Source: Stentor roeselii (Eukaryota > Ciliophora > Heterotrichea > Heterotrichida > Stentoridae). From it: a stretch of 64,000 bases of DNA. Position numbers and translations under genes: made by a program. The notes below the pieces were generated by a model that was given only the letters and a program-made list of their open reading frames with translations, made no database searches and was not told the origin of the DNA. The DNA lies in assembly GCA_006503475.1 (NCBI GenBank), contig RSEH01000113.1, positions 1 through 64,000 on the forward strand, written 5' to 3'. Positions 7,426-39,119 of this stretch are shown in pieces; the stretch's first letter is position 1, and every line of letters begins with the position of its first letter.

Positions 7426-8335
7426 ATGGAACATCTTTGTTCGGATAATTGCGGTCGAAGTGCTGAGGGTTACTGTCCTATTTGTTCTTTTAACTTTTGT
7501 TCAGAATGCTACAAATCGCATTATAATCAAGAACAACTAAAAAGTCAAGCCTTTGAACTAGCTACTCAAGTTTATACAAATCTTGAAATTTTAGCTGAAA
7601 AATTACAAGAAGAAGGATTTTTTTTGAATTCACTTATCAATGATCTTTTAAAACTTTCTATAGAAAATTTAACACAAAGATCACAAAAAATCACAGATCT
7701 TCTAAAAAAAACTACAGATTCTGAAATAATTCAAGAAATTTCGAACTTAAACATCTCGTCAGTAGTTCCTCTAAAAGACCAGCTTTATGAAGGACTCTTC
7801 AAAAATCAACTAGATTCACTTAAACAAGACCTCGAAATAGTCAAACAAGAGGCACTTAAAGGAAACTTGCTACTTTTAAAGCTTTCTGAAAAATTTGAAG
7901 AAAATTCTCCTCAGAGTAAATCTAAGCAGATCCCGAGTTTTTAAAGCAAGAAATGAAAATTTTTATTGAAGGACAAAGGAAAAAATTTGAAGATGAGTTG
8001 GAAAAAATTGAGGTAGAACTGGAAAAGTTCAAATTTGAAGGAGTGAAAAAAATTGAAGAAAATGAAAAATTCATTCAAAAAATTTCTCAGGTAACTGTGG
8101 AAAATATTGAGAAGGTAAAAAAAAATAGATTAGAACTGATGTCGAGATTTTGAAAGATGTTATTTTTTACTCGAATGATCGAGAAAATGAAATAATTTCG
8201 TCTGTGATGGTTTCCAATGATAGAAACTATTCATTTATTTGTAATGCCGATTTAGATACTTGTATATTTAAAAAGATAGTTGGATTTATTCAGATGTTGC
8301 GAATGGATGTAAAGAAAATTAGACTGTATTTGTAA
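7426..8335 (+). CDS. B-box-type zinc finger protein with coiled coil
   Basis: Three exons (7426-7915, 7930-8114, 8129-8335) joined by two 14-nt introns give 293 aa. The N-terminus has a B-box-like Cys/His pattern (C5, C9, C18, C21, C26, C29, H32: MEHLCSDNCGRSAEGYCPIC...CSECYKSHY), followed by a long coiled coil (about residues 45-215), the order seen in TRIM-like proteins without a RING. The TAA at 8333-8335 closes this model, yet the same frame continues open and strongly coding-like (DGNLYAVRVWDNKTHRP...) to a TGA at 8507-8509. No canonical 15-nt intron removes the TAA. So the gene may be truncated, mis-assembled, read through or decaying. Confidence 0.6.
7916..7929 (+). other. Candidate 14-nt intron (GTAAATCTAAGCAG)
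   Basis: Removing these 14 nt shifts the frame by two and joins ...ENSPQ to NPEFLKQEMKIF, extending the coiled coil without a stop. Unspliced, the frame ends at TAA 7942-7944. A second GT-AG choice of the same length (GTTTTTAAAGCAAG) lies just downstream, but the GTAA start favours this one. Confidence 0.6.
8115..8128 (+). other. Candidate 14-nt intron (GTAAAAAAAAATAG)
   Basis: Removal joins ...ENIEK to IRTDVEILKDVIFYS in frame. The run of nine A residues means a homopolymer-length error (a true 15-mer) cannot be excluded from sequence alone; but a 15-nt version would not restore this frame. Confidence 0.55.
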
Positions 8336-8656
8336 ATAGACGGTAATTTATATGCAGTCAGGGTTTGGGATAATAAAACTCATCGTCCTGTTATTAAGTA
8401 TCGACTTGCTTCGGGTGACATTGAAGGGTATGCTGTTTTGGATGAGTTCTTAAAAAAGTATAAGGAATGTTACCATCAAATCTTATGTCCTGAATCAGAT
8501 GAACTATGAAAATAATTAAAATTCATTTTAATATTATAAGAAGAGATCTTAACATAAATTATTTTGAGAAACTATTTTAAACCTAAACCTTACCTATCAA
8601 CTAAAAATTAATATCAGCATAAATACAAAAAAAATTCCTAATAACCCTACTTTAAA

Positions 8657-10054
8657 CTACTCAAAATAATCAATCTTACTCTCCAAATACTCAACAAGTC
8701 CCTTAATTTCCTCAGCCTCAAATTCATTAAAATTTTCTTCAATCTTCCTCACAATATCCCTATCAAGAAACCACCCTTCTTCCAAAACATTTTTCACAAT
8801 TTCAACAAAGTTAATCTCAGCTTCAGTAGGTCCTCCTATTTTCCTCTTCAAAAACTCCATTAAAAACTCATACAAAGCCGCTTGTTTTTTACTTTTTTTA
8901 ATTCTAATCTCTTGCAAAGAGTCGATTTTTTTTTTAATATCATTCATTTTCCTCAAAGAATACGACTTATCCTTGAACTTTTCCTGATCATTAAGTATAA
9001 ACTGAGCCTTATGCCTTAAAACCTGTTCTCTCCTCGAGTCAAGACTATCAACAATCTGAATAATTTTCTTATTCTGCAAGTTTCTAACTTTCCTAAATCG
9101 TTTAGTGCATCTTTCAACGATATCCCTTGGGTCCAAATTCCTTTTCTTGAATTCAGGAAAGTAAAAATCATCATCTCTTACCGGATTTGGAGTCTTCGAT
9201 AAAAACTTGTCAGTTTTTTTTATTTTATAGTTTTCATTGAAAGTCTTTCTTTTTGCTGGACTTCTCAGTCCAGGTGATTCGAACTGGTCGTTATAAGCTT
9301 TGATGATCAAGGCCTTCTGCGCAGGATAAGCCTGGAGTCTAAGCAAGACCTTCTTGTCGCTGTTCCACTTCACCCCCGGGTTGGAATTGACGAAAATCTC
9401 GAGTCCTGAGAGTTCTTTGCTGAAGTCTTCCAAATGTTTTCCGCATTTTTCTAGTCTTTCTGTAGCTTGTGCCTTGAAGTCCTTCATTCTTTCACTTTGA
9501 ACGTATTCTTTAAATGAAGGAAGCTCGAGAGGCTTTTTTAACTTCCCAGTTGTGATTGAAACATGAGGAAGGTTGTTAGGTCTTTCTGAAATGCTTTGGC
9601 GAAGAGAGTCTTCAAGGTTAACTGATGAGTTTAACTTGATTTTGTCTAAAACGTTTGGACCTGGACCTGAATAACGAATCATTTTTCCTGCTTTTGAGGT
9701 GGAAACGTAAGACTTTCGCTCTTGAAGTGAATGGATCAGCTTTAATTTACCTGAATCTCGAGGAAGATCGTTTAGAGATGAGGCTTCTGGCTTTGATGGG
9801 GAAATTGGAGAGGTTGAAGAGATTTGAGGCTTTAAAGGATCTAGGGGAGTTGATGGGGACTTGGAAGTTATTTGCTTTCGTGAGGATAACTTTTTGAAGT
9901 CGGTGAATTCTTTTTCGAACTTTTTTATGAACTTTAAGTCGTTTGGGTGAAGTTGGGATTGGAAATAGTAGGACTTGTTTTGAGTTATCCCTACTGCCAG
10001 TTGTAGAGTTTTAGCGTAGACGTCTTGCAGGTCTTCCTGAAGGTTGCTGTTCAT
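8657..10054 (-). CDS. Unknown 465-aa basic protein with C-terminal helical region
   Basis: Intact 465-aa frame, ATG start, TAG stop. Residues about 60-110 are Ser/Pro-rich and disordered with possible proline-directed phosphorylation sites (SPSTPLDP, SPISPSKP). Residues about 180-225 and 300-390 are predicted helical or coiled, rich in Lys, Arg and Glu; the C-terminus (about 410-465) is acidic. No signal peptide, membrane segment or known domain. Base composition flips inside the gene: the 5' part of the coding strand is A/C-rich and the 3' part G/T-rich. The product might be a cytoskeletal or cortical protein, but that is a guess. Confidence 0.65.
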   Translation of the reverse strand: MNSNLQEDLQDVYAKTLQLAVGITQNKSYYFQSQLHPNDLKFIKKFEKEFTDFKKLSSRKQITSKSPSTPLDPLKPQISSTSPISPSKPEASSLNDLPRDSGKLKLIHSLQERKSYVSTSKAGKMIRYSGPGPNVLDKIKLNSSVNLEDSLRQSISERPNNLPHVSITTGKLKKPLELPSFKEYVQSERMKDFKAQATERLEKCGKHLEDFSKELSGLEIFVNSNPGVKWNSDKKVLLRLQAYPAQKALIIKAYNDQFESPGLRSPAKRKTFNENYKIKKTDKFLSKTPNPVRDDDFYFPEFKKRNLDPRDIVERCTKRFRKVRNLQNKKIIQIVDSLDSRREQVLRHKAQFILNDQEKFKDKSYSLRKMNDIKKKIDSLQEIRIKKSKKQAALYEFLMEFLKRKIGGPTEAEINFVEIVKNVLEEGWFLDRDIVRKIEENFNEFEAEEIKGLVEYLESKIDYFE

Positions 10055-10673
10055 TTTAATGTAAATTTAAACAGACTTAAATAATTTAATGACTTTCCCT
10101 GAACCCAAAAAATGAGAATAAGGATATTAATGATTCTAGAAAAATTCCAAGAACAATGAGGTTTTTTTCCATCTCTTCAACATGCTGCACCCATTCCACA
10201 CTAAAAAAACAATAAAACTTCAAGATTTATGTGAAAGCCAAATCAAGTAATATATAAATTATCATAAAAAGTGATCTACCAAAAAAAATCTATTCAATTA
10301 GTCACTGAAAGCACAAATCTCCAATGAAACCTGTAAAAGCCAGCTTTAAACTTCTCTAAAAAAATTCAAAAAGTCCGATATTCTCATTTCAACAATCCTA
10401 TTCGATTTCTTCTACATAAACCTTTACTACAAAAGCCTGATACCAGATCTATTATTAAAAATTGATTTTTTAATAAAACCTTGAAAACCTTCATCAAAAT
10501 AAAAAAATATTCTTCAAGTAACACTCAAGAGCAACTCAAACAATTCCTCCCTTAACCTAAAAAAAATCCTAACAAAGAAGTATCTCTCACTCTTAACCAA
10601 CTAATCTACTATCCCTATCCCATCAAGAGCCAAATCCAAAAAAGCACAAAACTACAGCCTCTAAAAATTAATT
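10055..10673. other. Intergenic stretch, A/C-rich on the plus strand
   Basis: No convincing gene. On the minus strand a short Met-initiated frame of 28 codons near 10094-10180 encodes a hydrophobic peptide (MEKNLIVLGIFLESL...) that could be a tiny membrane protein, but it has no visible homology and I do not call it. Confidence 0.5.
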
Positions 10674-11543
10674 CTATTTCTTTGAGCTCTTGAACTTAGA
10701 ATAATTCTTCAACAACTTGTTAGCCGTGTGAAAGCTCGTGATTTGTCCATCTTTCCTCAGTTCAGGTGACATTAAAATTTTATCACTAGTAAGATTCCCA
10801 TTCAAATTGCGATAAATCGGTGAACCTCCAGGAGAAACTTTATTCCTTCCGCTGAACTCCTGATTTAAATGTTCCAATTTGTTCTTCTGGTAACTTAAAG
10901 TGTCCAATAAATGTTTGCTATCTTGAATAACTTTTGTATAATTTTCTTGTTCGCTTTCATCGTCACTCGGCTTTTCAGGACAAACGATTTTAACCCGATT
11001 TTCATCATCAGTGCAAAAGTCTTTAAAAAACCTTAAAAGCATCAAAGTACTGCAAGACCAGTTCTCATTTCCAATGACTTGCTTGAAATGATTAGAACTT
11101 TTCATATGACTTTTAAAAATTTGATACATTCTGGTCTTGTCATGCACTTTGTTAAGGAAAACTTCAGTCAAAGCGATGATTTCGTTTATTTGTTCTGAGT
11201 TCTTATGAACAATGCCGTGCATTGAAAGTTCAATTTCATTTTTTAGCTTTAAATTCGCCTGGTTCAGTGATTTTACGACGTCATCTTCTTCTTCTGCGGT
11301 TTCGAGTTGTTTGATTTTGTTTTTCAGTGAACGGATCAGGTTGTTTTTCTCGTGATTGTCTTGTTGAAGCTGTTGAAGAGATTTTCGAAGTTTTTCTTTT
11401 TCTTCTCGCAAAGATGAAATGACGGACGATGCTGAGTTTATGTCGCTTTGCATTGATTTCAGAAGGTTTCGGTCTACTAAGGCGTGGGTGCTTCGGGAAT
11501 GTTTCTCGTCTATCGGCAGACGGTTTGGCTTGCCCTCGAACAT
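10674..11543 (-). CDS. Coiled-coil protein of unknown function (289 aa)
   Basis: 289 aa, ATG start, TAG stop. Residues about 30-115 are a strong coiled coil (heptads with Leu, Ile and Lys/Glu/Gln, SLREEKEKLRKSLQQLQQ). Residues about 115-185 are a mixed helical region with Trp and Cys; residues about 190-260 are acidic then Ser/Gly-rich with SPGGSP and MSPEL sites that look like proline-directed kinase targets. No family is recognised. It is followed on the same strand, upstream, by the TPR gene that ends 42 nt away. Confidence 0.65.
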   Translation of the reverse strand: MFEGKPNRLPIDEKHSRSTHALVDRNLLKSMQSDINSASSVISSLREEKEKLRKSLQQLQQDNHEKNNLIRSLKNKIKQLETAEEEDDVVKSLNQANLKLKNEIELSMHGIVHKNSEQINEIIALTEVFLNKVHDKTRMYQIFKSHMKSSNHFKQVIGNENWSCSTLMLLRFFKDFCTDDENRVKIVCPEKPSDDESEQENYTKVIQDSKHLLDTLSYQKNKLEHLNQEFSGRNKVSPGGSPIYRNLNGNLTSDKILMSPELRKDGQITSFHTANKLLKNYSKFKSSKK

Positions 11544-11585
11544 TTATTATTTAAATCAAGTTTATTACAGTCAGTTTGAAGGTTT

Positions 11586-12731
11586 TTATTGAGGTTTTTC
11601 GTATGCTGAAAATGGACGAGGCTTATCCAGAAGCTTAAGAGAACCTCGAGAAAGGTGAAGGTGGGGTAAGAGCTTTGAACTTAAGGATGATAGGTGGGAT
11701 GATGATAAATACTTTGGGATTGGCTTATCGTGAGGGTCTTTTAGGATTGATAGAAGGTCTTGGTATGTTATTAGCATTCGGTAAACTGGGTATTTTTCTT
11801 TGGGAAATGCGAGGACCTTGACAGCAGACTTTCCAGGCTTGTTAATAATAAAAACTTTATACTTGACATTTCCCCAAGTTTTATAAACAGTTACCAGCAA
11901 GTCAACAGCATTCCTCATATTAGTCTCACTGATATCAGGTGACTTATTGGCAGTACTTGCGAAGCTTGCAGAGCTTCGAACATCAAGTGCAGAAGTTTCT
12001 GGATTCGAGAAGTTAAACTCAACAAGTTTCTCTAAAAAATTCTGAGTTCTCTGACTATTTTCCCCCCATCGCTGCTGACTGACTTCATAAGCTTTTTCAT
12101 AATAAACCTTTGCTTCCTTAGTGCGATTTAAGTACTCAAGTTCAACTGCATAGTTAAAATAAGCCGTGGTCAGGGCTTCTGGCACCGGCTTATCTTCATC
12201 AACAGTTTCCAGTAGTTTTACAGCTTCCAAGGCATGAACCACTGCTTTTTCATGATTTCTCATTTTACTAAGCACTGCAGTTAAATTAAGAAGAGTCGTC
12301 GAAACTTCATATTCATCAATTTTCCCCTTTTTTTCTAATTTCAAAGCTTTTTCTAAGTAACTGTGAGCAGTGACTAGTTTTTCACAAGTTTTAAAATAAC
12401 AGGCCAGGTTATTCAAAGTCAAACTTCTCATTTTCAGGATTGATTCGAAGAACTGACTTGCAGGAAACGAAACTTTCAAATGTTTGTAAAGAAAAGTGCT
12501 AAGTTTCAGTGCTTTTGATAAGAAATTAAAAGATTTTTTCGTGTTTTGAGTTTTTGGGTCCAGTGCCAAGTTGTTTAAAGACTTTATCAAATATTTGCAG
12601 TTCTCGAAATGTTCACTTGAAGGATCGTTGAACTCAGAAGAAGGGTCTGATGAAAGTGAAGAAAGATGAGAAATGTAAAAATTCGTCATTGACTCGAGTT
12701 GATCTGGCTTTTGTTTGATGCTTTTTTGCAT
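11586..12731 (-). CDS. TPR-repeat protein (381 aa)
   Basis: 381 aa, ATG start, TAA stop. Residues about 95-250 carry repeated helix pairs of the TPR type: an A-x-Y-L-E-K-A-L-K-L unit near 120, N-L-T-A-V-L...EKAVVHALEAVKLL near 150-175, and YFNYAVELEYLNRTKEAKVYYEKAYEV near 190-215. TPR arrays hold multiprotein complexes together; the partner is unknown. The C-terminal 130 residues have no recognisable domain (a compact beta-like region with VKVLAFPKEKYPVYRM). It is 12 nt from the stop of the TBC gene on the same strand. Confidence 0.7.
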   Translation of the reverse strand: MQKSIKQKPDQLESMTNFYISHLSSLSSDPSSEFNDPSSEHFENCKYLIKSLNNLALDPKTQNTKKSFNFLSKALKLSTFLYKHLKVSFPASQFFESILKMRSLTLNNLACYFKTCEKLVTAHSYLEKALKLEKKGKIDEYEVSTTLLNLTAVLSKMRNHEKAVVHALEAVKLLETVDEDKPVPEALTTAYFNYAVELEYLNRTKEAKVYYEKAYEVSQQRWGENSQRTQNFLEKLVEFNFSNPETSALDVRSSASFASTANKSPDISETNMRNAVDLLVTVYKTWGNVKYKVFIINKPGKSAVKVLAFPKEKYPVYRMLITYQDLLSILKDPHDKPIPKYLSSSHLSSLSSKLLPHLHLSRGSLKLLDKPRPFSAYEKPQ

Positions 12732-12743
12732 TTTTATTAAGAA

Positions 12744-14489
12744 TTAAAATAGTTTACATGAACTGCAGGTGTCCAGGCAACTTCGAGGTTTTGATTGGAT
12801 TGTTTTCGGAATTGGAAGAATTTCAATCATTTGAGCTTCTGGAAGTTGAGGTGAATAGTTTTCAGATGATTCAAGAGGATACTTTACTGCCACTTCTACT
12901 GAGGTACTTAACTCGTCTTTTGTGTTCAAAACGAAGAAGGCTTCGTCTGGCTCTAGAAGGGGTACAAACTGAATAAATAAAAAATTTGAGTTAAATATTG
13001 AAAGGACTTGATTTTTTGTTAGAGAATCGCCGAAGGTTTCAGTGATTTCTGATGATATTGACTTGAATGACCTGAAACAATGATCTGAGAATGGGTCGAG
13101 GAAGTTTTCAATTTGGATTAAATAACTCACGAAGTCTTTTAAACTTATTTTTTCTTTTCGGCCTTGAAAAAACGTTGAAATTATTTGGTCTTCTTTCGAA
13201 GGAAGGAAAAGACTGAGGAAAATCGGTAAAGAACTTAGAGATAAACTGTTATTTCCTTGAATGTCAAGAGTATTGAACCAATTTTCACTGTTTTTTAAAG
13301 AAATCTGTAAAAACTCAGAACAAATCTTGAGAAATTTTTCTCTTGAAACTTCTGAAAAACCTTTTAAAGAATTTAAGAGTTTTTCGTATTTTTCTTTATC
13401 AAAAAGTTCGTTTTTTAGACGGGTTCTGGTTTCTTGGATTTTTTCTCTTCGGAAGTTTTCAGATTTGATTGCCAGAGCAGCTGTTGACAAGAGTTCCCTT
13501 CTGCTGAAAGAATTGAAAAAACCATCTTGCATGCATTCTTTGATCATTAGTTCAACTTGATCCACCAAGTTAGACTTCAGAAGATTCCTAATAACAGAAT
13601 TCGCAGCTTTCAACAAAAAATCATCCTCATCAGAAAAATTCAAATCATTAAAATCTTTCGATTTTTTCTTTTTTTCATCTTTTTTCAGAGTTTTCAAGGC
13701 TGTTAAAAGTGTTTTTTCATGTCTTTTGACAATCCAAACACAAGTCTTTACCCAGAACTCGAATCCAGTCATTAACCCGAGATCCCAAATCCTCAAACAT
13801 TCTGCTCTTCCAACAAATCGAGTAAAAATCCCAGTCAACAAGATCCTAACAAGTCTTGAAATTGGAATTTCAAAGGCAGATATGTCTTTTTTTGTCTCTT
13901 TTTCTTTGAAAACAGTTAAAAACTTTAAAAGTTTAGGACAAAGATGTTGAATCATAAGAACTGCTGCTTTGACTTCAGTTTGCAAAACCTGGTATTTTTG
14001 GTGAAATGTAAAAAAATCCTATTTTTCCAATACTCTCGGAAAGACATTTTCTATTATATGAGAAAACATCACAAAAGTGTCACTTTCTGAAGAAAAAACA
14101 GTTAAAAGCATTGCACAGATCTCATTCATTCCAGCTTTATAAGTAATTTCCTGTCTTCCCAGGAAAAAAATACTTAAAACATTAAAAACTTTTGTAATAT
14201 TTTCCTGAGTTTCATATTCACTTAAAACTCTAGGAAAACTTATAAGAGCTTCTTTCATAAGTACCTGGCTTAACTCTCCAGAGTTTCCCAATTGCTGTGA
14301 TTTTCCTTTTTGATAACTTGCAAGTACTCGTTGGCAATACTGAATGCTGACCATTTTCACCCAAACCCTTCATACCCCTTACATTTCCCTTAATTCCCCA
14401 GGATCCTTGCTAAAAAGTTTATAAATCTTCTGAATACTTCCCTTTTCTAAAAAGTCCTTCCAGTTCTCACTTTTCTTCACCAGCTTCAT
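12744..14489 (-). CDS. TBC (Rab-GAP fold) protein with degenerate EF-hand, catalytic residues lost
   Basis: Three exons joined by two 15-nt introns at 14368-14382 and 14019-14033 (the first with an AAG acceptor) give 571 aa. The TBC fold is shown by the LREMVWVKMVS opening, the KVFNVLSIFFLGR segment, YKAGMNEICAMLL and later helices. In active TBC proteins the arginine finger lies in IxxDxxR and the glutamine finger in YxQG; here they read ALISFPR and YKAG, so D and Q are missing and GAP activity is doubtful. Further on, LDIQGNNSLSLSSL followed by a helix resembles a decayed EF-hand, which recalls the TBC-EF-hand order of the TBC1D8/TBC1D9 group. The start at 14489 was chosen because the shorter ORF from 14360 lacks the beginning of the TBC domain. 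The divergent neighbour starts 57 nt away. Confidence 0.75.
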
Positions 14490-14546
14490 ATTTAATAACC
14501 TTCTCTATTTCAACCAGAGCTAGTCCTCTACTTTCCATTAATAACA

Positions 14547-15287
14547 ATGAAAGTCCTCAAACAAGATACTCATAAACGAGCAGAAAGACTTCAACAACTC
14601 GCTTCTGCCAAAGGAGCCTTCAAGTCTCAAAGACCTCGAACCCAAGCAATCGACTTGGAACTTTTAGAGCTTCAAAGACGTGAGACCTCTTTTAATGAAA
14701 GCATCAGAAAAGAGTTACTAAAGCTAAACTTTCCTTTACTTGACAAGCCGCCAATTAAACCAAAGAAAAGACCTGAATCTCATTTTCAGTTTTCACTTTT
14801 GACGTCTTTGAAGGCGAAATCACCGAAAATCTCAAAAACTCCATTGAATGTAAAAAGAACGAAGACACGTCATACGACCTTTGCAGGTTTTTCCAGGAAA
14901 AACACGACAGACCTGCCGACAAGTCAGCCTCTTCCAGCGCTGGTGAAGTCTGTTCCTATTCACCTTGACCCGCGGTTGAGATATGCGAAAGTCAGGAAGT
15001 TGGAAGGTGGAAAGGACAAGCTTTTTCGTTTGAATAGCATCAACTCTATAATTTCAAGTCTTCAACAAGTAGACAAAACCAGTCCCGAACGATTTGACGA
15101 GTCACTTGAAGTGATTCGAGGAAGGACGAAAAGTGTGAGTCAATGCGTGAGCGCATTATGTGAAAGTACCCGTTTTGGAGTCAATACTTCTTTGGAGACC
15201 ATCGTGCAATTGCAAAACGATGCAACCAGGCTGAACCAGTTTATTTTAACTGAAAGTAACAAGATGACATTGGCAGTTTATAATTAA
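14547..15287 (+). CDS. Unknown basic disordered protein (246 aa)
   Basis: 246 aa, ATG start, TAA stop. It begins with a helical Lys/Arg/Glu stretch (KRAERLQQLASAKGAF), then a Pro/Lys/Ser/Thr-rich middle (about residues 70-150) and a helical C-terminal 90 residues (RTKSVSQCVSALCESTRFG). No domain recognised. The gene lies 30 nt before the next gene on the same strand; co-transcription is possible but not shown. Confidence 0.6.
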   Translation: MKVLKQDTHKRAERLQQLASAKGAFKSQRPRTQAIDLELLELQRRETSFNESIRKELLKLNFPLLDKPPIKPKKRPESHFQFSLLTSLKAKSPKISKTPLNVKRTKTRHTTFAGFSRKNTTDLPTSQPLPALVKSVPIHLDPRLRYAKVRKLEGGKDKLFRLNSINSIISSLQQVDKTSPERFDESLEVIRGRTKSVSQCVSALCESTRFGVNTSLETIVQLQNDATRLNQFILTESNKMTLAVYN

Positions 15288-15317
15288 CGAACATGTAGTC
15301 TAAATATTTAAATAACG

Positions 15318-16712: not shown

Positions 16713-16867
16713 AAAGACTGTTAAAATTTAGAAAATAGTTAAATTTCTCTTTTTTCTCCTTATTTCTCAAATCTTCATCTGAATTTCCAATTTTAAAACT
16801 TTTCAAAAAAACAAACTAAATTTCACTCCATACTTTAAACTTAAATCCTAACGACATCCTATAAAAT

Positions 16868-18205: not shown

Positions 18206-18421
18206 TTAATTAATAATGAAGGTGATACCAAATCTATTTCATAATTTCTGATCTTAACTTTTCAATTCAAGAACACTTAACTTCCAAAAAAAAAAAAAAT
18301 TCTTAAAATTCTTAAAAAATTTAATAATATCTTCTTCAATCACTTCCTTCCAAAACCCTGTCAATTCCAACTCCACAATATCCATCTCAAAAAAAACCCT
18401 AACTTCAACTACCTAACTAAT

Positions 18422-18820
18422 CTAAATAACGTAATAATACTGCCAACATGCAAAACTATCAAAGCTGTAATGATGGAAACTGACCTGGGTAATATAACTT
18501 CCTTTATCCGAAGGTCCTTGCAGGTTAACAGTGAAATTTCCAACAGCATTCTTGAGGAACTCCTTCTGAACAGTCTGATAAGTATAATGCCAGAATCCAA
18601 TTCCATCCTTAGTTCCAACATAAATCTGTTCAACATAGTCCTTATCGGTGAAAACTCCATTGATCGAGATGGTATATTCCTGAGTTCTTTGAATAGGCCA
18701 AGGATTAATATCAAAAGTCTGAATGACAAAAGAAGGATTTTTCAAGCAAGACTCTCCAACTTGTTGCTGTAGATTAGTAGAAGCGAATACAGCCACAACT
18801 AAAAAAAACACAAATTTCAT
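18422..18820 (-). CDS. Secreted ML (MD-2-related lipid-recognition)-like protein, copy 1
   Basis: 132 aa, TAG stop. Residues 1-16 are a signal peptide (MKFVFFLVVAVFAS). The mature part has a Cys near residue 25, the F-I-x-x-F-D-x-N-P-W-P motif at about 35-42, and alternating strands ending in two aromatic clusters (FWHYTYQ; CWQYYYVI). Small secreted beta-sandwich proteins with this cysteine and NPWP/DPCP-type motif belong to the ML/NPC2 group, which binds lipids in the secretory or lysosomal route. The assignment is by pattern only. It is the tandem duplicate of the next gene, 12 nt away. Confidence 0.65.
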   Translation of the reverse strand: MKFVFFLVVAVFASTNLQQQVGESCLKNPSFVIQTFDINPWPIQRTQEYTISINGVFTDKDYVEQIYVGTKDGIGFWHYTYQTVQKEFLKNAVGNFTVNLQGPSDKGSYITQVSFHHYSFDSFACWQYYYVI

Positions 18821-18832
18821 TATTAATCCCTA

Positions 18833-19237
18833 TTAGATTACGTAGTAATACTGCCAACAGGCCAACTCATCTAAACTCGACCTGTGAACACTGACTTGAC
18901 TTGTATAGCTTCCTTTATCAGAAGGTGCCTGAAGGTTCACAGTGAAATTTCCAACAGCATTCTTGGCGAACTCCTTATTCACACTCTGATAAGTATAATG
19001 CCAGAACCCTTTTCCATCCTTTAATCCAATGTAAAGCTGCTCCACGTAGTCCTTCTCTATAAAGACTCCTCCAATGTTAATCACGTAGTTTTGGATCCTT
19101 ACTAAAGGCCAGGGGTTCACGTCGAAAACCTGAATCACGAAATTCGGGTCTTTCCTGCAAGACTCGCCCACCTGTTGCTGCAAGTTCGGAGAGGCGAGGA
19201 CTAGAGCAAGCATTAAGAAGCTGAGAGCTACTTTCAT
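18833..19237 (-). CDS. Secreted ML-like protein, copy 2
   Basis: 134 aa from ATG 19237 (a longer start at 19249 adds MVNN). I prefer 19237 because the signal peptide MKVALSFLMLALVLAS then begins at residue 1 and because the upstream sequence (AATAATATG-like) matches that of the paralogue. The mature region is about 65 percent identical by eye to copy 1: same QQQVGESC, VNPWPL, KDYVEQLYIG, GFWHYTYQ, AVGNFTVNLQ and ACWQYYYVI blocks. This is therefore a recent tandem duplication. Function: probable extracellular or vacuolar lipid binding, inferred from the ML-like pattern. Confidence 0.65.
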   Translation of the reverse strand: MKVALSFLMLALVLASPNLQQQVGESCRKDPNFVIQVFDVNPWPLVRIQNYVINIGGVFIEKDYVEQLYIGLKDGKGFWHYTYQSVNKEFAKNAVGNFTVNLQAPSDKGSYTSQVSVHRSSLDELACWQYYYVI

Positions 19238-24716: not shown

Positions 24717-24726
24717 TTAATAAGGA

Positions 24727-25691
24727 ATGATAAAGTCATGTTTAGTTGTTAGACGGTTGTCCGCGGCTAGCTCGATTCAACCTATTTCTGAAGCGATTAT
24801 CAAACTTCCGAGTTTTCTTGAGTTTTATAGGCCAGTCATAAACCTGACAGAAAATGCGATTGAATCTATAGTATCATTCACAGGAGTACCATGGTGGCTT
24901 TCAATTTCATTGTTAACCCTATCAATACGTTTATCAAATCTACCCTTCTTGTACCTTCAATACCGTGCAATGGGTCCTCTATCATCAGCGATGCCAAGTT
25001 ACCGTCTTCTATTCAACATATCAAAGCATTCAACAGCCTCGCCATTGAAAAAGTTATCCTGCATTCTAACATCAATGCGTCAAATAAACAATCATCACTC
25101 AACGCGTTTTTTAAAATCCTTCACTTACGGTTTTTTACAAATTCCTCAATTTCTGACCTTCGTATGGGGTGTTCGAAGTTTATGTGTAAAAAACGAAGAC
25201 TTAAAAACCGGTGGTATTTTTTGGTTTGAAAACCTTTGCGAGTCAGACCCACTGATGATCCTTCCAGTCTTATCAATGGGGATGACGTACTTAAACCTTC
25301 AGCTAGGAGTGACTGCTGAGAACAAAGACTGGTTAATAAACCGATTCAAGGGGTACCTTCAGATCTGGGTAATCCTTACTCTGCCAATATCAGCCAACTG
25401 GCCTTCGGTAAAGGTAAATAGGGAGTTTTTTGCTATTGGATCACGAACTCCTTCTGTTCTTTCATCCAAGCACAGGTCATGTACAAGACGAACATCATGA
25501 CAAAGATAAATCCAGAAGTTCAACAACAGTACATCCAGATCTACTCAAAAACAATTGACCAAGAAACTTCAGAAAGACTGACGAAACTCATCACTACTGG
25601 CATTGAAGGATACTACAGAACTAATGAAAAAATCGTTGTTTATCGACTTGAAAAGTACATCGAACAACAGAATCATTTTAAGGGTAATTAA
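24727..25691 (+). CDS. Oxa1/YidC/COX18-type mitochondrial membrane insertase
   Basis: Two exons (24727-25407, 25422-25691) joined by a 14-nt intron give 316 aa, TAA stop. The N-terminus is basic and Ser-rich (mitochondrial presequence-like). PWWLSISLLTLSIRLSNLPFLYLQYRAMGPL matches the first core membrane helix with its conserved Arg; LQIPQFLTFVWGVRSL, a third segment near residue 170-185, and GVFCYWITNSFCSFIQAQVM form the remaining Oxa1-fold helices. COX18-like proteins insert cytochrome oxidase subunit 2 segments into the inner membrane; assignment to COX18 rather than OXA1 is by small size and is tentative. The stop codon overlaps the stop of the convergent G-patch gene. Confidence 0.82.
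25408..25421 (+). other. Candidate 14-nt intron (GTAAAGGTAAATAG)
   Basis: Exon 1 ends at codon TCG (25405-25407) and exon 2 resumes with GGA at 25422, joining SANWPS to GVFCYWITNS, the last conserved helix of the Oxa1 fold. The two reading frames differ by exactly the shift a 14-nt intron gives; 15 or 16 nt would not restore the frame. Confidence 0.75.
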
Positions 25692-30090: not shown

Positions 30091-30124
30091 TTTTTAGTAT
30101 TACGGCCGCCATAACATTATTTAA

Positions 30125-31048: not shown

Positions 31049-31414
31049 ATGGACTTTCTTGATACTGTGCTTCAGATTGAAGAAAAAGCATTTCAAGAAG
31101 GGCTTGAGGATGGAAAGGTCAGGGCTAGGGAAATTGCTGAGAAGGAAAGTAGGGAATTGGGAAAGGAAAATGGATTTTTTATTGCGAGGGAGTATGGGTT
31201 TATCATTGGGTTTACTGAAGTGGTTAATATGGAAGAGCATATTCGTGAGAAACACTTGAAGACTATTCAGGAGATTTTAGATGTTCATATTGAGCCTACT
31301 ATGCCCGACCACGAGATAAACTCAAAAATGTTAAAACTCAGAAGTCTCTTCAAAGTCCTTCTAAGCCAAGTAAAAATAACCCTTCAATACTCAACAGAAA
31401 CCGATCTCTTTTAA
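31049..31414 (+). CDS. LTO1: LTO1/ORAOV1-like protein (Yae1-Lto1 complex)
   Basis: 121 aa, TAA stop. The diagnostic deca-GX3 repeat of the Yae1/Lto1 family is present: EGLEDGKVRAREIAEKESRELGKENGFFIAREYGFIIGF (read here in parts, residues about 17-54). Lto1 and Yae1 act as an adaptor that delivers the cytosolic iron-sulfur assembly machinery to the ribosome-recycling ATPase ABCE1/Rli1. The start codon directly follows the stop of the kinase gene (zero spacing), and the stop is 4 nt from the stop of the convergent TBC gene. Confidence 0.8.
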   Translation: MDFLDTVLQIEEKAFQEGLEDGKVRAREIAEKESRELGKENGFFIAREYGFIIGFTEVVNMEEHIREKHLKTIQEILDVHIEPTMPDHEINSKMLKLRSLFKVLLSQVKITLQYSTETDLF

Positions 31415-31418
31415 TTAA

Positions 31419-33179
31419 TTAATTATTCAAAAGTCCACAGTACTTCGTAGCTTGATTGACACAAGTCCTCGCATCAGTATAACTTAAAAATTCAAAGAAA
31501 AGTGACTTGGGATTATCACTAAAGTAAAACCCAACAATTCTCCTTTCCTTATTCTTACACCTAATCCGATACAAGTTTTCAAGTCTTCCATGATAAACAA
31601 TAGTTTTCGTTTCCCCTCCATAGTTCCTAACGACTCCAACAGTAAAATAATTGTGATTGATAGCGATTTCATAAAAGTCTTCAGAAAGTGACTTATGAAT
31701 TTTATCATAAAGACGACACTTATAAAGCCCAGTGTCAACATCGTCAAACTCATAGACCTGCACCTCGTTCAAAGAACTACTTCGAGTTTTCACTGCTTTT
31801 GTCTTGTTACTCGACCGTCTTCCAAAGCAAAAAATCCATCGCGTTCGAACTGGTCTACAAAGTGAACAATGGTCGTCAAAGTGATTATCCAACGGCAAAG
31901 AGTAACTTAATGCAAAATTATGACATTTCTCGAAACCACCTTCTACAAGTGATACATAAGGAAAGCCTTTAACTAGAAAAGCTTGAAGTAAATTTTGAAT
32001 AACTGTCTGGGTCTTGTCGCTATCTTTTAAAAGCTTTTCTTGCAAGTCGAAAGTTCCTATTGAAAAATCCTTGCTTCCCATAAGACAAAAGTGAAAAATC
32101 CCTCGAATCTCGATGAACTGGTCTGGAAAGTCTAAAATACTTTGAGTGTCTTTGTAAAGGTCTGGGTGCACCAGGCATGTATTCGGAAAGACTCCTTCAT
32201 GTTGTTCTTTTCCTTGACGGCAGTCAAGGATAATCAACGGCAGGTCTTTCACCCGCTTCACACACCAGGCGCACTGTTTAAACTTACAAGAACAAATTTT
32301 CATCTCAGGGTACGCACGGATCATCACTTCTTGAGGAGGGACTGTCAAACAGAATTCCTTTTCCAAAGCTTTTAAGCTAAAATTAATAGTCTCCAAGTTG
32401 TAAATGTTAAAATTCACAAGTCTCACAAAAATCGAATAAGGCATATTTTTCTTAATAAACCTCGCTTTTGGAAGAATCAAGTGCAACTCTTCTAAAGTGT
32501 CAAAATTTAAATGAGAAATTGCCTGAGCCACCAGGTAGTCTTCCTTGTCAATGATCAAGTGAGTCACATGCTGTAAAAAAGCGACAGAAACATAAACAAG
32601 GAACAAAGGGTCTGACTCTGCAAGCATTTCTTCCCAAAGCTCATAAAGTACTTCCATGTCGGTTAGTTTGAAAGCGAAGGCTGTTAGAAACCAACTGGAT
32701 GAGTAAAGTTCTGGAGAAATTCGATTCATTTGGAAAAAAGCACTTAAACGTGGCTCGTGGTATCTTAGGACAAGGCGAAATATTAAAAAAAATGCTTGTA
32801 AAGGCCGAAAGTCCTAAATTAATTGTACTGGGTCTGAAAACATTGTGGTTAGATGGTGAAGGACGAAGAGGGTGAAAAGGTGATATGCTGTATTTTCTGG
32901 AACTTGATCTCGGATCATTAGTAAGAAAGGAGCGCATATCTCGTTTAGACCTTGCTTGTAATGGATTTTCTGGTCTTTGCAGAACTTTGTTAGCATTTTT
33001 TCTAAGAGATGCTGCTCGGCTTGATGAAGGTCACCCCCTCTTGTTCGCTCTACGTCGATTTTTATGATGTTTTGCTCAGGAAGGTCCAGGTCTAGCTCGA
33101 AGCTGTATGAAGGGACTTGCTGAACTTTTAAAAGTTCCTAAATTTTAATTACGAGCCATCGTTTGACCCTAAATTCCAT
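31419..33179 (-). CDS. TBC-rhodanese protein, TBC1D23-like
   Basis: Three exons joined by 15-nt introns at 33138-33152 and 32814-32828 give 576 aa. Order: short N-terminus MEFRVKRW; TBC domain (about 10-240) with IIKIDVERTRGG and HYKQGLNEICAPFL; rhodanese-like domain (about 265-375: LPLIILDCRQGKEQHEGVFPN ... GFPYVSLVEGGFEKC); and a C-terminal beta-rich domain (about 420-576). This order matches TBC1D23, a golgin-binding tether for endosome-to-Golgi vesicles. Unlike what is reported for the animal protein, both catalytic motifs (IxxDxxR and YxQG) are intact here. The start at 33179 gives a complete TBC N-terminus. Confidence 0.85.
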
Positions 33180-33412
33180 GTAATAAGTATAATGAATTAA
33201 ATGTTTTAATCGCTGACTTTTAATCAAAATTTCAATCATTTCAGTCTTCAGTCTACTTTATGAAATTTTTCAAGAATATTTTTCTCAATTTATACTTAAA
33301 TCAAATAACAAGTCTCTTATTGATGATAGAAACCAAAAAATATTCATCTTGAAAAATTGAAATATTTATAAGTATTGAATGAAAATCTCACATGATTCAA
33401 GTTTTAACTAAA

Positions 33413-34195
33413 CTAATCGCTCTCGGGGACTACTTTTCGACAATCATGGTCATCAATTAAAATTTCTCCTGGAGGAGCAGTTTCAAGTTTCATCAAAATT
33501 TTAATTTTACCTGCTATCGTGTTCTGAGGCTGCAACTCGGCTGGTAAGCTGTTTCTTTCAACGAGAGGAGGATGCTCGAAATCAACTACTCGATGAAGCC
33601 AATCATTCCAAGTTTCATTTGGGTCGCGAACTGGATCAATTAGTTTAGGTTCTCTTATGATTGGAGCCAGGGTGAAGTGAGGAACGACATCAGGAGGGAT
33701 TCCTTTTTCTAGAGACATGAGAAATCCTGGGTAGTCAACATAACTAATATTCATATTTTTCTTGATTAAACTGTATTCTTCCGCACTTTTACTCGGTACC
33801 AGTCCAACATTATACAAAAAGTAGGCAGTGTTATAATACCCATACAAAACTGCAAAATCCGTCGCATTCATCAAATTCGGGCCAAGAATGCTAGTATCTG
33901 CCCCAAAGTTCAACAAAAATTTAACCGATTCCAAATTTCCCCTAGCCGCTGCCCACATCAAAGCCGTGAATCCAGCCCCAGCAGGTTTATTCAAGTCAGC
34001 TCCTAAAGAAATAAGCTCAGCTAAAATATGAGGACGGTCCAGATAAGCTGCCCGGGTAAGGGCGCTAGTCTTCCCGTCATCTGAAATAGGTTCATTGATG
34101 AGATTCGGGAATTTCTGGCAAAGATCTCTGACGCTTTCAGGGTCGTTCGCAGTGATAGCCACCCAAAGTTTATGTTTTTGTTCTGAGTTTCCCAT
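33413..34195 (-). CDS. Ankyrin-repeat protein (260 aa)
   Basis: 260 aa, TAG stop. Residues 5-140 contain four ankyrin repeats (DGKTSALTRAAYLDRPHILAELISLGADLN; GFTALMWAAARGNLESVKFLLNFGADTS; NATDFAVLYGYYNTAYFLYNVG). The C-terminal half contains WNDWLHRVVDFEHPP and other hydrophobic patches but no known domain. The N-terminus MGNSEQ begins with Met-Gly, and Ser at position 4 could allow N-myristoylation; this is weak. Binding role inferred only from the repeats. Confidence 0.8.
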   Translation of the reverse strand: MGNSEQKHKLWVAITANDPESVRDLCQKFPNLINEPISDDGKTSALTRAAYLDRPHILAELISLGADLNKPAGAGFTALMWAAARGNLESVKFLLNFGADTSILGPNLMNATDFAVLYGYYNTAYFLYNVGLVPSKSAEEYSLIKKNMNISYVDYPGFLMSLEKGIPPDVVPHFTLAPIIREPKLIDPVRDPNETWNDWLHRVVDFEHPPLVERNSLPAELQPQNTIAGKIKILMKLETAPPGEILIDDHDCRKVVPESD

Positions 34196-34802
34196 TAAAG
34201 TTTATTATTAATATTGTGCTGAGTTGTTATTCGAACGACTTTTGAATTCCCTCTGAAGTTGAATGTTTTTCATCATTTTTACTAAGATTTAGATTTTAGC
34301 TGGCTATTATTTAATCAACGAATCGCTTTCACTGATTCGAGCTTTCAAGAGTCTTGAATAAAAAGCTAGTGATTTTTCTATTCAGAGAAAAAAGAGTCAA
34401 ACTATTGAAGGTGGTTTTATTTAAAGTTAATGAAAAATATCTGAGAGAATCAAGAATGGTCGAGAGGGTCAGAACCATTTGAAGAATTTCGAGAAATTTA
34501 ATGAATGATCAAGTTTATTGCGGAAAAGACCTGAAACTCCTGAATTGCTTTACTTTCTGATTCAACAAAACACAAAAAATTTAAAAATTGACTTAAAATC
34601 CAGCCATACGTTTCATAAAGAAACGTTTTCTTTTTCAGTAAACGATTTAAAATCGAAAGAATCCTGCTTTGATTGGCCTTTCCTCATTAAAATCCTTATT
34701 AATCTTAAACCTCAATCAAAAAACAACAGGTTTCTTCTAATATGTTTAGTTTATATGTAAAAAATTCAAATAATTCATTTGTGATGGAAAATAAATTAAA
34801 AA
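34196..34802. other. Intergenic region upstream of the Myb gene
   Basis: No supportable gene. An open stretch at 34518-34760 lacks an ATG and has no recognisable product. A small inverted repeat, CGAATC...GATTCG, lies near 34319-34340. The sequence just before the Myb start is AT-rich. Confidence 0.45.
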
Positions 34803-35588
34803 ATGTCTCAAAGCAGAAATAACTGGACCGAAGAAGTAGCAGATATTTAGGAAGACCAGATAATAAAGGAAATCGTCCTCGTCCAAGGCAAGAAAAAATG
34901 GACTAAAATTGCCAAAACGATTAAAGACACTCTTGGAATCGATTCTCGAACTGGGAAACAATGCCGTGAACGATGGCATAATCATCTCAATCCTGATATT
35001 AAGAAAGATAATTGGAGTCCTGAAGAAGAGCTAAAAGTTTTTGAGCTGCAAAAGCGGCTTGGGAATAAGTGGAGTGAAATAGCTAATCAGATGCCTGGTC
35101 GTACTGATAACTCTATTAAGAACTGTTTCTATAGTGCGATTCGAAGAAACCTGAGAAAGTACAATAAAAAAAAGCCAGAGTCTGAAAAATTGAAAGGCTC
35201 ACTAAAAAGTCTTTTAAAAAAACCTTCAATCCAGGCAATTTTAATGAAAAGTAGTTTCGACTCAGAATCAAAACATCCACAAGAAAAAAGTCAAGAAATC
35301 AAAAGTGAGATAATCCGTCCAATAATCCAACCCCTGACACCAATAGGGATGTACCAATACCCAATAACTCCAAGCACGACTCAAAGCATGATGTCCTCAA
35401 AATTCAGTTCAGCGTTTTTCAATTTTCCAGACGAGGCTTCTATATTAGAAAATAATCTGGGAAAACTTGAAAATGAAGAAGAAGTCTTTTCACCTGAATC
35501 ACTGGCTTCTCACTACTTTATTCCTCAGTTCACTCCGAAAGATACTTTTCACTTTTACTTTACTCCCAGGAATTCAAACTCAGAATAA
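34803..35588 (+). CDS. R2R3 Myb-type DNA-binding protein
   Basis: Two exons (34803-34835, 34851-35588) joined by a 15-nt intron (GTAGCAGATATTTAG) give 256 aa, TAA stop. The intron splits the first Myb repeat: NWTEEEDQIIKEI follows only after splicing. Repeat 1 (about 7-60) has W...W...R...CRERWHNHLNP; repeat 2 (about 62-112) has NWSPEEELKVFELQKRLGNKWSEIANQMPGRTDNSIKN. The Trp spacing and the GRT-N-S-I-KN recognition helix are those of the c-Myb class. The C-terminal half is Ser/Pro-rich. A nuclear transcription factor, likely binding AAC-core sites. Confidence 0.93.
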
Positions 35589-35891
35589 ATCTCGTAGATT
35601 AAATATTTTGGAAAATGGGTAAATCTTCCAGTGAATTTAGGTTAATAAGGGTTATTTTGGTGGTTTAGAGAAAAATTTTTAATTTTTAGGCTTGTGAAGG
35701 TTTTTTGAGGTTTAAGTCTTTAAATGAGTAAAGTTTTAGAAGAATGAGTTTCATTTTGATTGTTGGAATCAACGAAATGTTAGAAAAATTTAGAATTAAA
35801 GTGCTGAGATAGCTTCACGAATTTTATTAACTGAAAATAGTTAAAAGTTCCTAGAGGTTTAAAAAAGTGCCAAGAAAGTGAATTGGTTTGT
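35589..35891. other. Spacer after the Myb gene, G/T-rich then A-rich
   Basis: No gene visible. With the tandem repeat that follows it forms a roughly 610-nt gene-free block between the Myb and RRP41 genes. Confidence 0.4.
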
Positions 35892-36055
35892 ATCAAATAC
35901 TTTAAAGTTTTGAGTTTCACAAACCTCTAAGAAAATACATTAAAGCAGATTTCCTCAATATTCACTAAATCAAATGCTTTAAAGTCTTGAATTGAAAAAA
36001 CTAAATAAAGTACTTGAAAGGCAAATATTCTCTATATTCACCAAAACAAAAGTAC
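35892..36055 (+). repeat. Imperfect tandem duplication, about 77-nt units
   Basis: Unit 1 at 35892-35968 and unit 2 from 35969 share ATCAAATRCTTTAAAG at the left, TTGARTT next, and CTCAATATTCACTAA versus CTATATTCACCAAAA at the right. The middles are diverged. It lies in the intergenic block between two convergent genes and has no coding potential. Confidence 0.55.
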
Positions 36056-36202
36056 CAAATTTTTAATTTTTTATAAATTTCAAAGAAAATGATTATCAAC
36101 TAAACCTTCTCAATATTCCTAAAATTTTTCCAATCAAATTATCTCCCAATTATTCTAATCCTTTCAACTACCGACTTAATCAATTCACTACATCATTAAA
36201 AG

Positions 36203-36919
36203 TTAATAAGCATAATGACTTAAACAAAACTGCCTGATAAAAAAGTGAATTTGTTTACATCCTTCAACAGCCAAAGCAAGTAACTCCTTCATAACAGGAA
36301 CACTTAGCTTACTACTTCCAAACTGTTCATAATTCATATAACTAATAAGCCCAGAAGACCCAAGCACAGCGACCCTAAACTCAGAAATAACTGAAAAGTT
36401 TAAACATTCCGCATAAGTGACATCTAAAATCGCTTTCCCATTAAAAAACCCACAACTACAAGACACTAAAAAGTCCTTCATCGGAACTCCAGCATCAATT
36501 AAAGCCAAGTTGACAGCATTGATAGCAGCACTTTCAACACTTCCATCATCCTGTAGAACCGAAATATGAATATCCAAGTCCGAATGAGGAATATTTTCAA
36601 ACAAGACAACACTTTCCACCATATCCTTAATAACCTCTTCAAATTCATTCGATTTTTTATCACCCCTGACGACTTTTTTCCTTTCTCCAGTAGTGCAGAA
36701 ATGAGCAGATGTAAAATAACAAAAAACTTTTCCTCTTTCTTTCTCAAATCGTGTTTGTTTAGGTCCATATACAGAGACCAGTACTTTCGTGTTGCCAAGT
36801 TGAAAAATCGCTGAACCATTAGAAGTATTGACGACTCCAACTTGAATTTTAAGATTTCTCAACTCTGCAAGTTTTCTACCGTCTTGTCTGAATCCGTAAA
36901 ACAAAACTTCTTCAGACAT
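36203..36919 (-). CDS. RRP41: Exosome core subunit RRP41/EXOSC4 (RNase PH fold)
   Basis: 238 aa, TAA stop, normal length for the family. It opens with FYGFRQDGRKLAELRNLKIQVGV, then GSAIFQLGNTKVLVSVYGPK, and later SDLDIHISVLQDDGSVESAAINAVNLALIDAGVPM, the RNase PH core motifs of RRP41. In eukaryotes this subunit forms part of the six-member ring of the RNA exosome with RRP45; the ring is usually without catalytic activity. It lies 10 nt from the next gene on the same strand, whose stop is at 36930. Confidence 0.93.
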   Translation of the reverse strand: MSEEVLFYGFRQDGRKLAELRNLKIQVGVVNTSNGSAIFQLGNTKVLVSVYGPKQTRFEKERGKVFCYFTSAHFCTTGERKKVVRGDKKSNEFEEVIKDMVESVVLFENIPHSDLDIHISVLQDDGSVESAAINAVNLALIDAGVPMKDFLVSCSCGFFNGKAILDVTYAECLNFSVISEFRVAVLGSSGLISYMNYEQFGSSKLSVPVMKELLALAVEGCKQIHFFIRQFCLSHYAY

Positions 36920-36929
36920 TTATTACTAG

Positions 36930-38321
36930 CTAATAAAAAGGCTCTGAATTTTCTTCTGGAAGAGGTTTTTTCAAAGGCTCGATTTGAACTAATTCTTTTA
37001 CAATGTCTTGAGTCTTGCGACGTGTCAGGCCTTCGAAGGCTTTTTTGGTTTCTTCGTCTTCTTGAAGTGGACGAATCACTTCGTCGACTTTCTTGCTGAT
37101 TATTTCAAACATTTCTTCTAAAGTGTTTTTTCCTTCGTTGATGTGGTTTCCTGTGGGCACTTCTAGTTTTTCTTTGATTTCTAAAGTGTGACAGATTTTT
37201 TCTCCCCAGTTTACAACTGTGTTGTAAAAACTGATGTTTTTTTGAAGTTTTTCTTTGGACTGAGCGTATTCTTTGTAGTTTTCTGTGAGTTTTTGCTCGG
37301 TCTCGTCGATTTCTGTGTAGATTTGACGAGTACTGCCGGATTCTTCGTATCTGACGGATTTTAGTTGTTCTCTGGCTTCTTCGTTTTGCTTTTTTAGATG
37401 TTCGAGTTTTTTTTCAGCTTGAGCGACGGCAGTGAGTAAGTTGGCGTAATTGTTTTCACGGGTTAAGTATCTTTCTACGATTTCATTGACGTCGGTGAGG
37501 CCAGTGTAGGACTTAATCATATTATAAGCCTGCTCAAGAGGCTGATTTTTTTTAACTTCACTGTTAAATCTTTTACACAAAACAATAAACCACATACGAT
37601 GAAGCAAAATATTTTCCCTCAATTTCGACTCCTGTGAGTCTTTATCATCATTAGCAGCAGCTTCTGAAATTTCCGCCTGTCTTTTCTGTCTTTCTTCTCT
37701 TCGATATGCCTGTTCTTGCCGTTGTCTGACACTTTTTTCCAATTGAGAGATTTTTTCATGTTTTCTTCTTTGTTCAACAGCTAAAGTTTCTTTGATTTCC
37801 TGAAGCATGACTCGTGACTGGTACTGATTTTCTCTAATTTTTCGAAATTTATCAGTTTCACTGTCAACCAGGTAATTTGTTGACTTGAGTGAGGTCTGTA
37901 AAGAGTTTGCTTTCATTTCCATTGCAATTTTCTCTTGTTTCATGCGGTCCAACATGTATAAATAAGATTTTTTGCACATAAGCTCGTCTTCATGTTTCTT
38001 TTTGTTCTGGTCTAGGATTGTTTGAAGGTTTTCGATTCGACTTTGAAGTGATTTACTGTCTTGGTCTGTCATTGTACTTGCTGTGTTTAACTTTTCTAGT
38101 TCTAGTTTCAGCTTCTCGCAATATGCACGCTTTTTACTGTTCGACTCTTTTGTCTTGTCGTGCTTTTTACGGATTAGAGAAAGTTGGGATGCTACTTCTT
38201 TAGTGTCGTCGGAACCGCTGAAGAGCTTGTCGTCTAAGTCACTTCTTGAGTAGTCGGTTATTAGGAGGGGAGAGTTTTTGGAACGGATTAATGGGGAGAG
38301 AGATCTTCTTGATTCTTTCAT
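36930..38321 (-). CDS. Coiled-coil protein, outer-dynein-arm docking complex-like
   Basis: 463 aa, TAG stop. Nearly the whole protein from about 45 to 420 is coiled coil. The segment GLTDVNEIVERYLTRENNYANLLTAVAQAEKKLEHLKKQNEEAREQL (about 275-320, given in parts) resembles the conserved block of CCDC63/CCDC114/CCDC151 docking-complex proteins (G-x-x-D-x-N-E-[IL]-V-x-[KR]-[FY]... followed by N-x-x-L). Those proteins attach outer dynein arms to ciliary doublets. The call rests on this block only; another ciliary coiled-coil protein is possible. The first 40 residues are Ser/Arg-rich. Confidence 0.6.
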   Translation of the reverse strand: MKESRRSLSPLIRSKNSPLLITDYSRSDLDDKLFSGSDDTKEVASQLSLIRKKHDKTKESNSKKRAYCEKLKLELEKLNTASTMTDQDSKSLQSRIENLQTILDQNKKKHEDELMCKKSYLYMLDRMKQEKIAMEMKANSLQTSLKSTNYLVDSETDKFRKIRENQYQSRVMLQEIKETLAVEQRRKHEKISQLEKSVRQRQEQAYRREERQKRQAEISEAAANDDKDSQESKLRENILLHRMWFIVLCKRFNSEVKKNQPLEQAYNMIKSYTGLTDVNEIVERYLTRENNYANLLTAVAQAEKKLEHLKKQNEEAREQLKSVRYEESGSTRQIYTEIDETEQKLTENYKEYAQSKEKLQKNISFYNTVVNWGEKICHTLEIKEKLEVPTGNHINEGKNTLEEMFEIISKKVDEVIRPLQEDEETKKAFEGLTRRKTQDIVKELVQIEPLKKPLPEENSEPFY

Positions 38322-38385
38322 TATATATAAATCTCATAGTTCTAACAATACATCCATTTAGTTCAAACCAGCTAATTGAATACAA

Positions 38386-39119
38386 ATGGAATCCACAAAA
38401 CTTTGTTGGTAAAAATCATCCAGCTGGGACTTCCAAGGACTTTTCAGATTTTTAGCCTTATTCGAGATGTTACGAGAAATAGTTATCTGCAGCATAATAG
38501 TTCTTTACTGCATGAAAGAAGAATTTGGAATAATTTTCTACTACTATGCGATCAGTAAATTTAATCAGATTTTATTACTTTCGTTCCAAGTCTTTTGATG
38601 ACTTCAGTTGTTTACTTCAAGTTTAGCAGACCAGTCCTTGTAGAAAAAAGTATTCCCTGTTTCTATAATGTCAAGGTAACCACAACCATTTGTTGGGTGT
38701 TAGAGTCGATTTGCATGCTCATTATCAGAGCTCTGCTTAGGATTGAATTGACGACGATCATTGTTGAAGCCGTCTTTTTGGGTATCGGGATCACTATTGA
38801 CTTCGCTTTTGTTTGCTCTGTTAGAAGTGTTAAAAATATTGCTGTTCGAGGAGAACCTATGCAACCTGCTCATTTTGGACAGCCGATTGAAGTTAAAAGT
38901 GCTGTGGTAGCCAATCCAAACATACAAACTTTCATCGTTGAATCAACAGAGATCTGTGAACTCGGTTCATACCCAACCAAAAAATTCGAATCAGAAAAAA
39001 ATCTTCCAGAAAACAAAGAAATAATCATCCAAGACTTTACCCTTCGTAAAAACAGCGATTCAAACAACTCCCATCCGACCGACCTAAAAATAACCGACTT
39101 GAACACAATTAATAATTAA
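38386..39119 (+). CDS. Multi-pass membrane protein, four-TM type (234 aa)
   Basis: Three exons (38386-38408, 38424-38554, 38569-39119) joined by a 15-nt and a 14-nt intron give 234 aa, TAA stop. Membrane segments: about 18-38 (FLALFEMLREIVICSIIVLYC), about 44-68 (GIIFYYYAINFITFVPSLLM), about 90-108 (TTTICWVLESICMLIIRALL) and about 115-135 (IIVEAVFLGIGITIDFAFVC). A soluble, Ser/Asn/Asp-rich tail of about 95 residues follows. Topology resembles the unrelated-looking four-TM protein at 41442-42032. No family recognised. The first ATG in frame was chosen as start. Confidence 0.65.
38555..38568 (+). other. Candidate 14-nt intron (GTAAATTTAATCAG)
   Basis: Removal joins YYYAI to NFITFVPSLLMTSVVYF in frame, completing a hydrophobic membrane segment. 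Without it the frame meets TGA TGA just downstream. Only a shift of two (14 nt) connects the frames; no 15- or 16-nt GT-AG choice does. Confidence 0.65.

Follow-up and report, generated by a model that had tools for sequence, protein, structure and literature searches.

Candidate 14-nt spliceosomal introns in a heterotrich ciliate genome

Can a spliceosome remove an intron of only 14 nt? The question is raised by four sites in the window, i.e., the whole stretch of 64,000 nt that was analyzed (C18:1-64000, in a genome of 44.4 Mb in 522 contigs), at each of which a 14-mer stands between two reading frames. About 95% of heterotrich introns are reported to be 15 nt long and the remainder 16 nt (in the passage on introns of PMC11441545); in Stentor coeruleus, 8173 of 8806 introns have 15 nt and 633 have 16 nt (in the text of PMC9505925). 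The four sites are:

7916-7929, + strand: candidate 14-nt intron GTAAATCTAAGCAG, phase 1, in a B-box-like gene
8115-8128, + strand: candidate 14-nt intron GTAAAAAAAAATAG, phase 0, in the same gene and within a run of nine A
25408-25421, + strand: 14-nt intron candidate GTAAAGGTAAATAG, phase 0, in an OXA1/YidC-like insertase gene
38555-38568, + strand: 14-nt intron candidate GTAAATTTAATCAG, phase 1, in a member of a small membrane-protein gene family

A sequence check found all four 14-mers, at the coordinates reported in a first-pass annotation of this DNA, to start with GTAA and end with AG, and so to carry the GT...AG ends of spliceosomal introns. At each site the frame change calls for the loss of a number of bases that is 2 mod 3, which excludes 15 and 16 nt; the original claim that exact removal of 14 nt joins the frames at all four was confirmed, the motifs being present and the lengths being 2 mod 3. 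As in heterotrich tiny introns, the four have a GTA start, a YAG end and an A five bases before the 3’ end; their length, 14 nt in every case, falls outside the 15 or 16 nt of that type. The branch A of S. coeruleus introns is placed at A10 in 15-mers and A11 in 16-mers, leaving a 5-nt tail (text of PMC9505925), which predicts A9 in 14-mers, and this holds in 4/4. Since all four have A at both positions 9 and 10, either could be the branch base on sequence grounds. Scanning the window for Rfam families and tRNAs returned no matches.

We consider it likely, from the sequence, that spliceosomal introns lie at these sites and that they belong to the heterotrich tiny-intron type, one base shorter. 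For all four we infer splicing, and the intron reading is probably right for at least two. The two strong cases in the window are 25408 and 38555; the two sites of the B-box-like gene are weaker.

The standard genetic code was first taken from ORF lengths, and was dropped on stop usage and on the presence of TGA inside long genes. When TGA was read as a stop, 68 of 119 genes with a score above 30 and without overlap stopped at TAA, 40 at TAG and 11 at TGA, and three of these 11 continue in a coding-like frame. In-frame TGA codons were found inside long coding frames at L012, at L023 and in the window at 5126-6694 (- strand). In an ABCG gene (589 residues), TGA stands at codon 356, with ABCG2 homology running through it. 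UGA is very probably a sense codon in this genome, likely encoding Trp, the meaning it has in Blepharisma stoltei (PMC9942806). With its very probable sense UGA, its genome size and its base composition (44.4 Mb, with 65.6% AT over 264 kb, vs 41 Mb and 66% AT in B. stoltei; PMC9942806), the organism appears closer to Blepharisma than to Stentor. Tiny introns are a further likeness to B. stoltei, but they are described there as “predominantly 15 and 16 bp”, with 14 not mentioned in the main-text passages (PMC9942806). Likenesses to S. coeruleus are the GTA start, the AG end, the A five bases from the 3’ end, AT richness and the low number of introns per gene; in contrast to the sense UGA that is very probable here, that species uses the standard code, and “14 nt” is absent from the text of the article (PMC9505925). 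Loxodes magnus, from the sister group of heterotrichs, also has very short introns, but their mode is 17 nt and those below 16 nt are described as negligible (passages of PMC11441545). Our literature search, which covered main-text passages, found no 14-nt heterotrich intron; the lone text matches to “14 nt” (PMC10449743) and “14 bp” (PMC9942856) concern telomeres and IES logos.

We applied a codon model with free intron length to 264 kb, i.e., the window plus 20 stretches of 10 kb, without overlap. The number of 15-nt introns called was 16-21, varying with the penalty and with the donor allowed (GT or GTA), and was 0-5 at each other length; the 15-nt peak was absent from control end pairs (seven in one run, four in another). 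Calls of 12-, 13-, 18-, 19- and 20-nt introns were unsupported. At 18254-19237 (- strand) there are two tandem, closely similar small genes, which the model fused through false 12- and 19-nt introns. The first-pass annotation had spoken of “Stentor-type” ciliates with 15-16-nt introns, and this description has to be corrected: TGA lies inside long coding frames as in Blepharisma, and 15-nt introns but no convincing 16-nt intron were seen in the 264 kb. A reference set of 26 15-mers was formed by 20 from the codon model (with GTA required) and six from paralog loci. All 26 start with GTA, but for 20 of them this was a model requirement; A10 is present in 25/26, and the end is YAG in 23 and AAG in three. 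The GTA start and the mostly YAG end are shared between the mostly 15-nt introns of this genome and the 14-mers. Over the 200 kb sampled by place outside the window, the model made a single 14-nt call, and this one was poorly formed (motif score 1.0); the window, which was picked for these sites, is therefore an outlier, unusually rich in them.

How often a removal of 14 nt joins good open frames by chance, as judged by LLR and joined score, was measured on both strands of the 20 stretches of 10 kb outside the window, by testing every third base (129,600 positions in all). There were 1042 occurrences (0.8%) with LLR≥12 and joined≥5, 348 (0.27%) with LLR≥15 and joined≥8, and 0/129,600 with LLR≥15 and joined≥25. 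The corresponding scores (LLR / joined) were 20.9 / 29.6 at 7916, 13.7 / 19.4 at 8115, 12.5 / 6.0 at 38555 and 5.1 / 15.2 at 25408. Codon support at 25408 is low because the unspliced frame is also open, and the case for this site thus rests on homology, which concerns the following gene:

24727-25691, + strand: OXA1-like insertase gene with two exons, from Pfam and OXA1L homology

The joined protein aligns with human OXA1L without a gap across the junction (LPISANWPSGVFCYW / LPITMHFPTAVFMYW, E 1.1e-20), and scores 47.5 bits against Pfam 60KD_IMP, vs 26.8 when read through (cut-off 35). A second OXA1-like gene, on contig C235, reads on without an intron at the matching place, as judged by eye.

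The site at 38555 could be compared with homologs that do have an intron at the same position, unlike the case of 25408. The gene is:

38467-39119, + strand: membrane-protein gene with the 38555 intron and a conserved C-terminal DFT motif

A family search gave seven matches, corresponding to the two window exons and five paralogs. When the six genes were aligned with introns removed, the intron fell in column 57, in phase 1, in all six; its length is 15 nt in the five paralogs and 14 nt in the window gene. L041 contains a second family member, the sixth copy besides the window gene, and its 15-nt intron (GTAACCTAAAAATAG) is at the matching place, as seen by eye without alignment. The simplest history for 38555 is a single-base loss from a 15-nt intron. 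These two genes also bear on ribosomal frameshifting across the sites with nothing spliced, a process reported in Euplotes, another ciliate genus (PMC10235951), which would account for the frame change found in every case. We regard it as extremely improbable: in the OXA1L alignment, as in that with SERINC3 described below, residues encoded by the 14 nt would have no place, and at 38555 the paralogs have an intron.

The 15-nt length in the paralogs of the 38555 gene would also be expected if assembly or base calling had lost one base from ordinary 15-nt introns, and the run of nine A at 8115 is in keeping with such a loss. Neither 25408 nor 38555, however, has a long homopolymer. With frameshifts allowed, the gene model placed 5-13 of them in about 187 kb of coding sequence when TGA was a stop, depending on the penalty. 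When TGA was a sense codon it placed 14 in 187,671 coding nt, and 13 of these were in weak genes or where a gene or stretch ends. At 11 per 187 kb, 0.02 losses would be expected in 24 introns; the argument is statistical, and the P of about 2e-6 for at least three losses is too small, since the window was picked for these sites. Frameshifts thus look too rare for base loss to be a likely explanation of the 14-mers, and we consider it improbable.

The B-box-like gene gave a less clear picture. Its features, besides the two sites above, are:

7426-8515, + strand: B-box/zinc-finger coiled-coil-like gene, from sub-threshold Pfam matches only; its candidate 14-nt introns number two or three
8309-8322, + strand: possible further 14-mer GTAAAGAAAATTAG, unproven, motif score 9.2
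8333-8335, + strand: in-frame TAA in the third segment of the gene, from sequence and translation

The last two were absent from the first-pass annotation. The gene has no accepted Pfam domain, and no close paralog was found in a genome search. At 8115, one lost A in the run of nine would turn a 15-nt intron into one of 14. Past the TAA, a coding-like frame continues to 8513-8515. The 14-mer at 8309, with a 19-nt partner that avoids the TAA, was chosen by the gene model with TGA as stop; it was not chosen with TGA as sense, and in the local test joining there gave no open frame. Within 8309-8357, GTAAAGAAAATTAG, the TAA and a 15-mer, GTAATTTATATGCAG, lie close together, and no combination tried read convincingly. 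It is possible, if somewhat doubtful, that the window has just two 14-nt introns, those at 25408 and 38555, and that the B-box-like gene is a pseudogene whose segments are joined by chance or by indels, as may be suggested by the TAA, the run of nine A and the lack of a close paralog and of an accepted Pfam domain. Against this, 7916 outscores all 129,600 control positions and has the full intron motif.

Aiming to see whether 14-nt introns occur elsewhere in the genome, we examined two samples. The first consisted of nine sites in five stretches, taken from listed GTAA-N-AANYAG places, mostly clustered ones. The second consisted of 24 sites: the 16 best motif scores among 39 listed matches (one more listed match being in the window), and the first eight new sites of 27 matches to a stricter motif. 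A site passed the local test with LLR≥15, joined≥8 and no stop. Four of the 24 motif-chosen sites passed, vs about 0.06 expected at the control rate of 0.27%; the other 20, and 8/9 sites of the first sample, failed. The four are in a SERINC gene (C1:123279), at C59:39545, at C85:169455 and in L054. Exact removal restores a conserved protein in the SERINC gene as in the OXA1-like gene of the window, the junctions being ungapped against SERINC3 and OXA1L, respectively. C59:39545 and C85:169455 belong to unnamed genes, open on both sides, and score above all control positions. L054 was set aside despite passing: its 14-mer comes after a MIF4G domain, where an ordinary end of the protein is just as likely. 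In the first sample, the site in an MFS gene (C28:116013) passes the local test; its alignment with SLC22 transporters continues across the junction, with a gap of 1-2 residues beside it, and a second 14-nt intron in this gene is possible. For the site in an RRM-WW gene (C7:132689), also of the first sample, the alignment of the RRM runs through the junction, leaving a loop gap of 1-4 residues, and the local test is failed because a 52-nt intron follows closely. This gene (L042, C7:131700-133500) seems to need that intron, GTAAGG...CACTAACTTTCGTAG, which contains CTAAC, a branch-like site, and longer introns may thus exist beside the tiny ones.

For six of the nine sites read first, a 14-nt intron was unsupported. 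L048 is a kinesin that reads through and was not accepted, nor were C7:132385, the C5 pair, C22:118442, L061 and the C25 pair, of which the gene model had called one site, close to the end of a gene. L047, L051, L052, L069 and C28:114970 are possible sites. At C25:117623-117840 there are three identical 20-mers 99 bases apart, which suggests a tandem repeat with a 99-bp unit.

With these further cases, the earlier reading of the four sites as spliceosomal 14-nt introns gained ground at 25408, through the OXA1L alignment, and at 38555, through the position common to the 15-nt introns of the paralogs; for the B-box-like gene it is uncertain, with strong codon support at 7916 next to the run of nine A at 8115 and the in-frame TAA. 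That gene, with its TAA and its two or three 14-mers, is also what might be seen if real one-base deletions had broken the introns, leaving the sites unspliced and the alleles or genes decaying, and the 15 nt kept by the paralogs of the 38555 gene fit with this too. We think such decay quite unlikely: those parts of the OXA1-like, membrane-protein, SERINC, RRM and MFS genes that were inspected showed no other lesion (taking as given the 52-nt RRM intron and the possible second 14-nt MFS intron), and A9 and the YAG end are retained.

Genome-wide, the form GTAA-N-AANYAG was counted 866 times at 14 nt, 2434 at 15, 684 at 16, 740 at 17, 900 at 18 and 850 at 20. The 15-nt form stands out (2434 vs 900 at 18 nt) and the 16-nt form (684) does not. 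A control with the backward pattern gave 1423, 1172, 1690, 1590, 1539 and 1791 for the same lengths, exceeding the forward count at every length tried except 15 nt. The 14-nt excess over lengths of the same codon phase (17 and 20 nt) is 16-126, as set by the background length chosen; the count is roughly compatible with about a hundred 14-nt introns of this form, and proves no class. A joining test on the broader motif GTA..ANNYAG, with TGA as sense and LLR≥9, was noisy: 7/46 sites joined at 14 nt, of which three are the sites of our own finding and four are unconvincing, vs 0-3 for any one of nine other lengths and a maximum of 4 in controls. An earlier version of the test, with TGA as stop, had looked cleaner than this repeat. 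A standing class of 14-nt introns, with tens to about a hundred members genome-wide, a 9-nt loop and a fixed 5-nt tail, has in our view slightly less than an even chance of existing.

If the 14-mers are tiny introns one base shorter, the spliceosome would remove them by branching either at A9, with a 9-nt loop and a 5-nt tail like that of the Stentor 15- and 16-mers, or at A10, with a 10-nt loop and a 4-nt tail. A lariat loop of 10 nt is already implied by heterotrich introns of 15 nt (text of PMC9505925). A one-base loss from a 15-nt intron would be tolerated, the 3’ block being required and the loop being allowed to be one base shorter. In a standing class with the 9-nt loop, loop length would be free (9, 10 or 11 nt) and the distance from branch to 3’ site fixed. 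Natural one-base variants, with 14 vs 15 nt at the same position in one family, would allow one to ask which distance the spliceosome measures. Gene predictors that allow only 15-16 nt would take such genes for frameshifted ones or pseudogenes. Introns of 14 nt may be among the shortest removed by the splicing machinery, one base under the 15-16 nt of relatives; a class of them would lower the minimum reported for heterotrichs, and would come near the smallest size that the spliceosome can physically handle.
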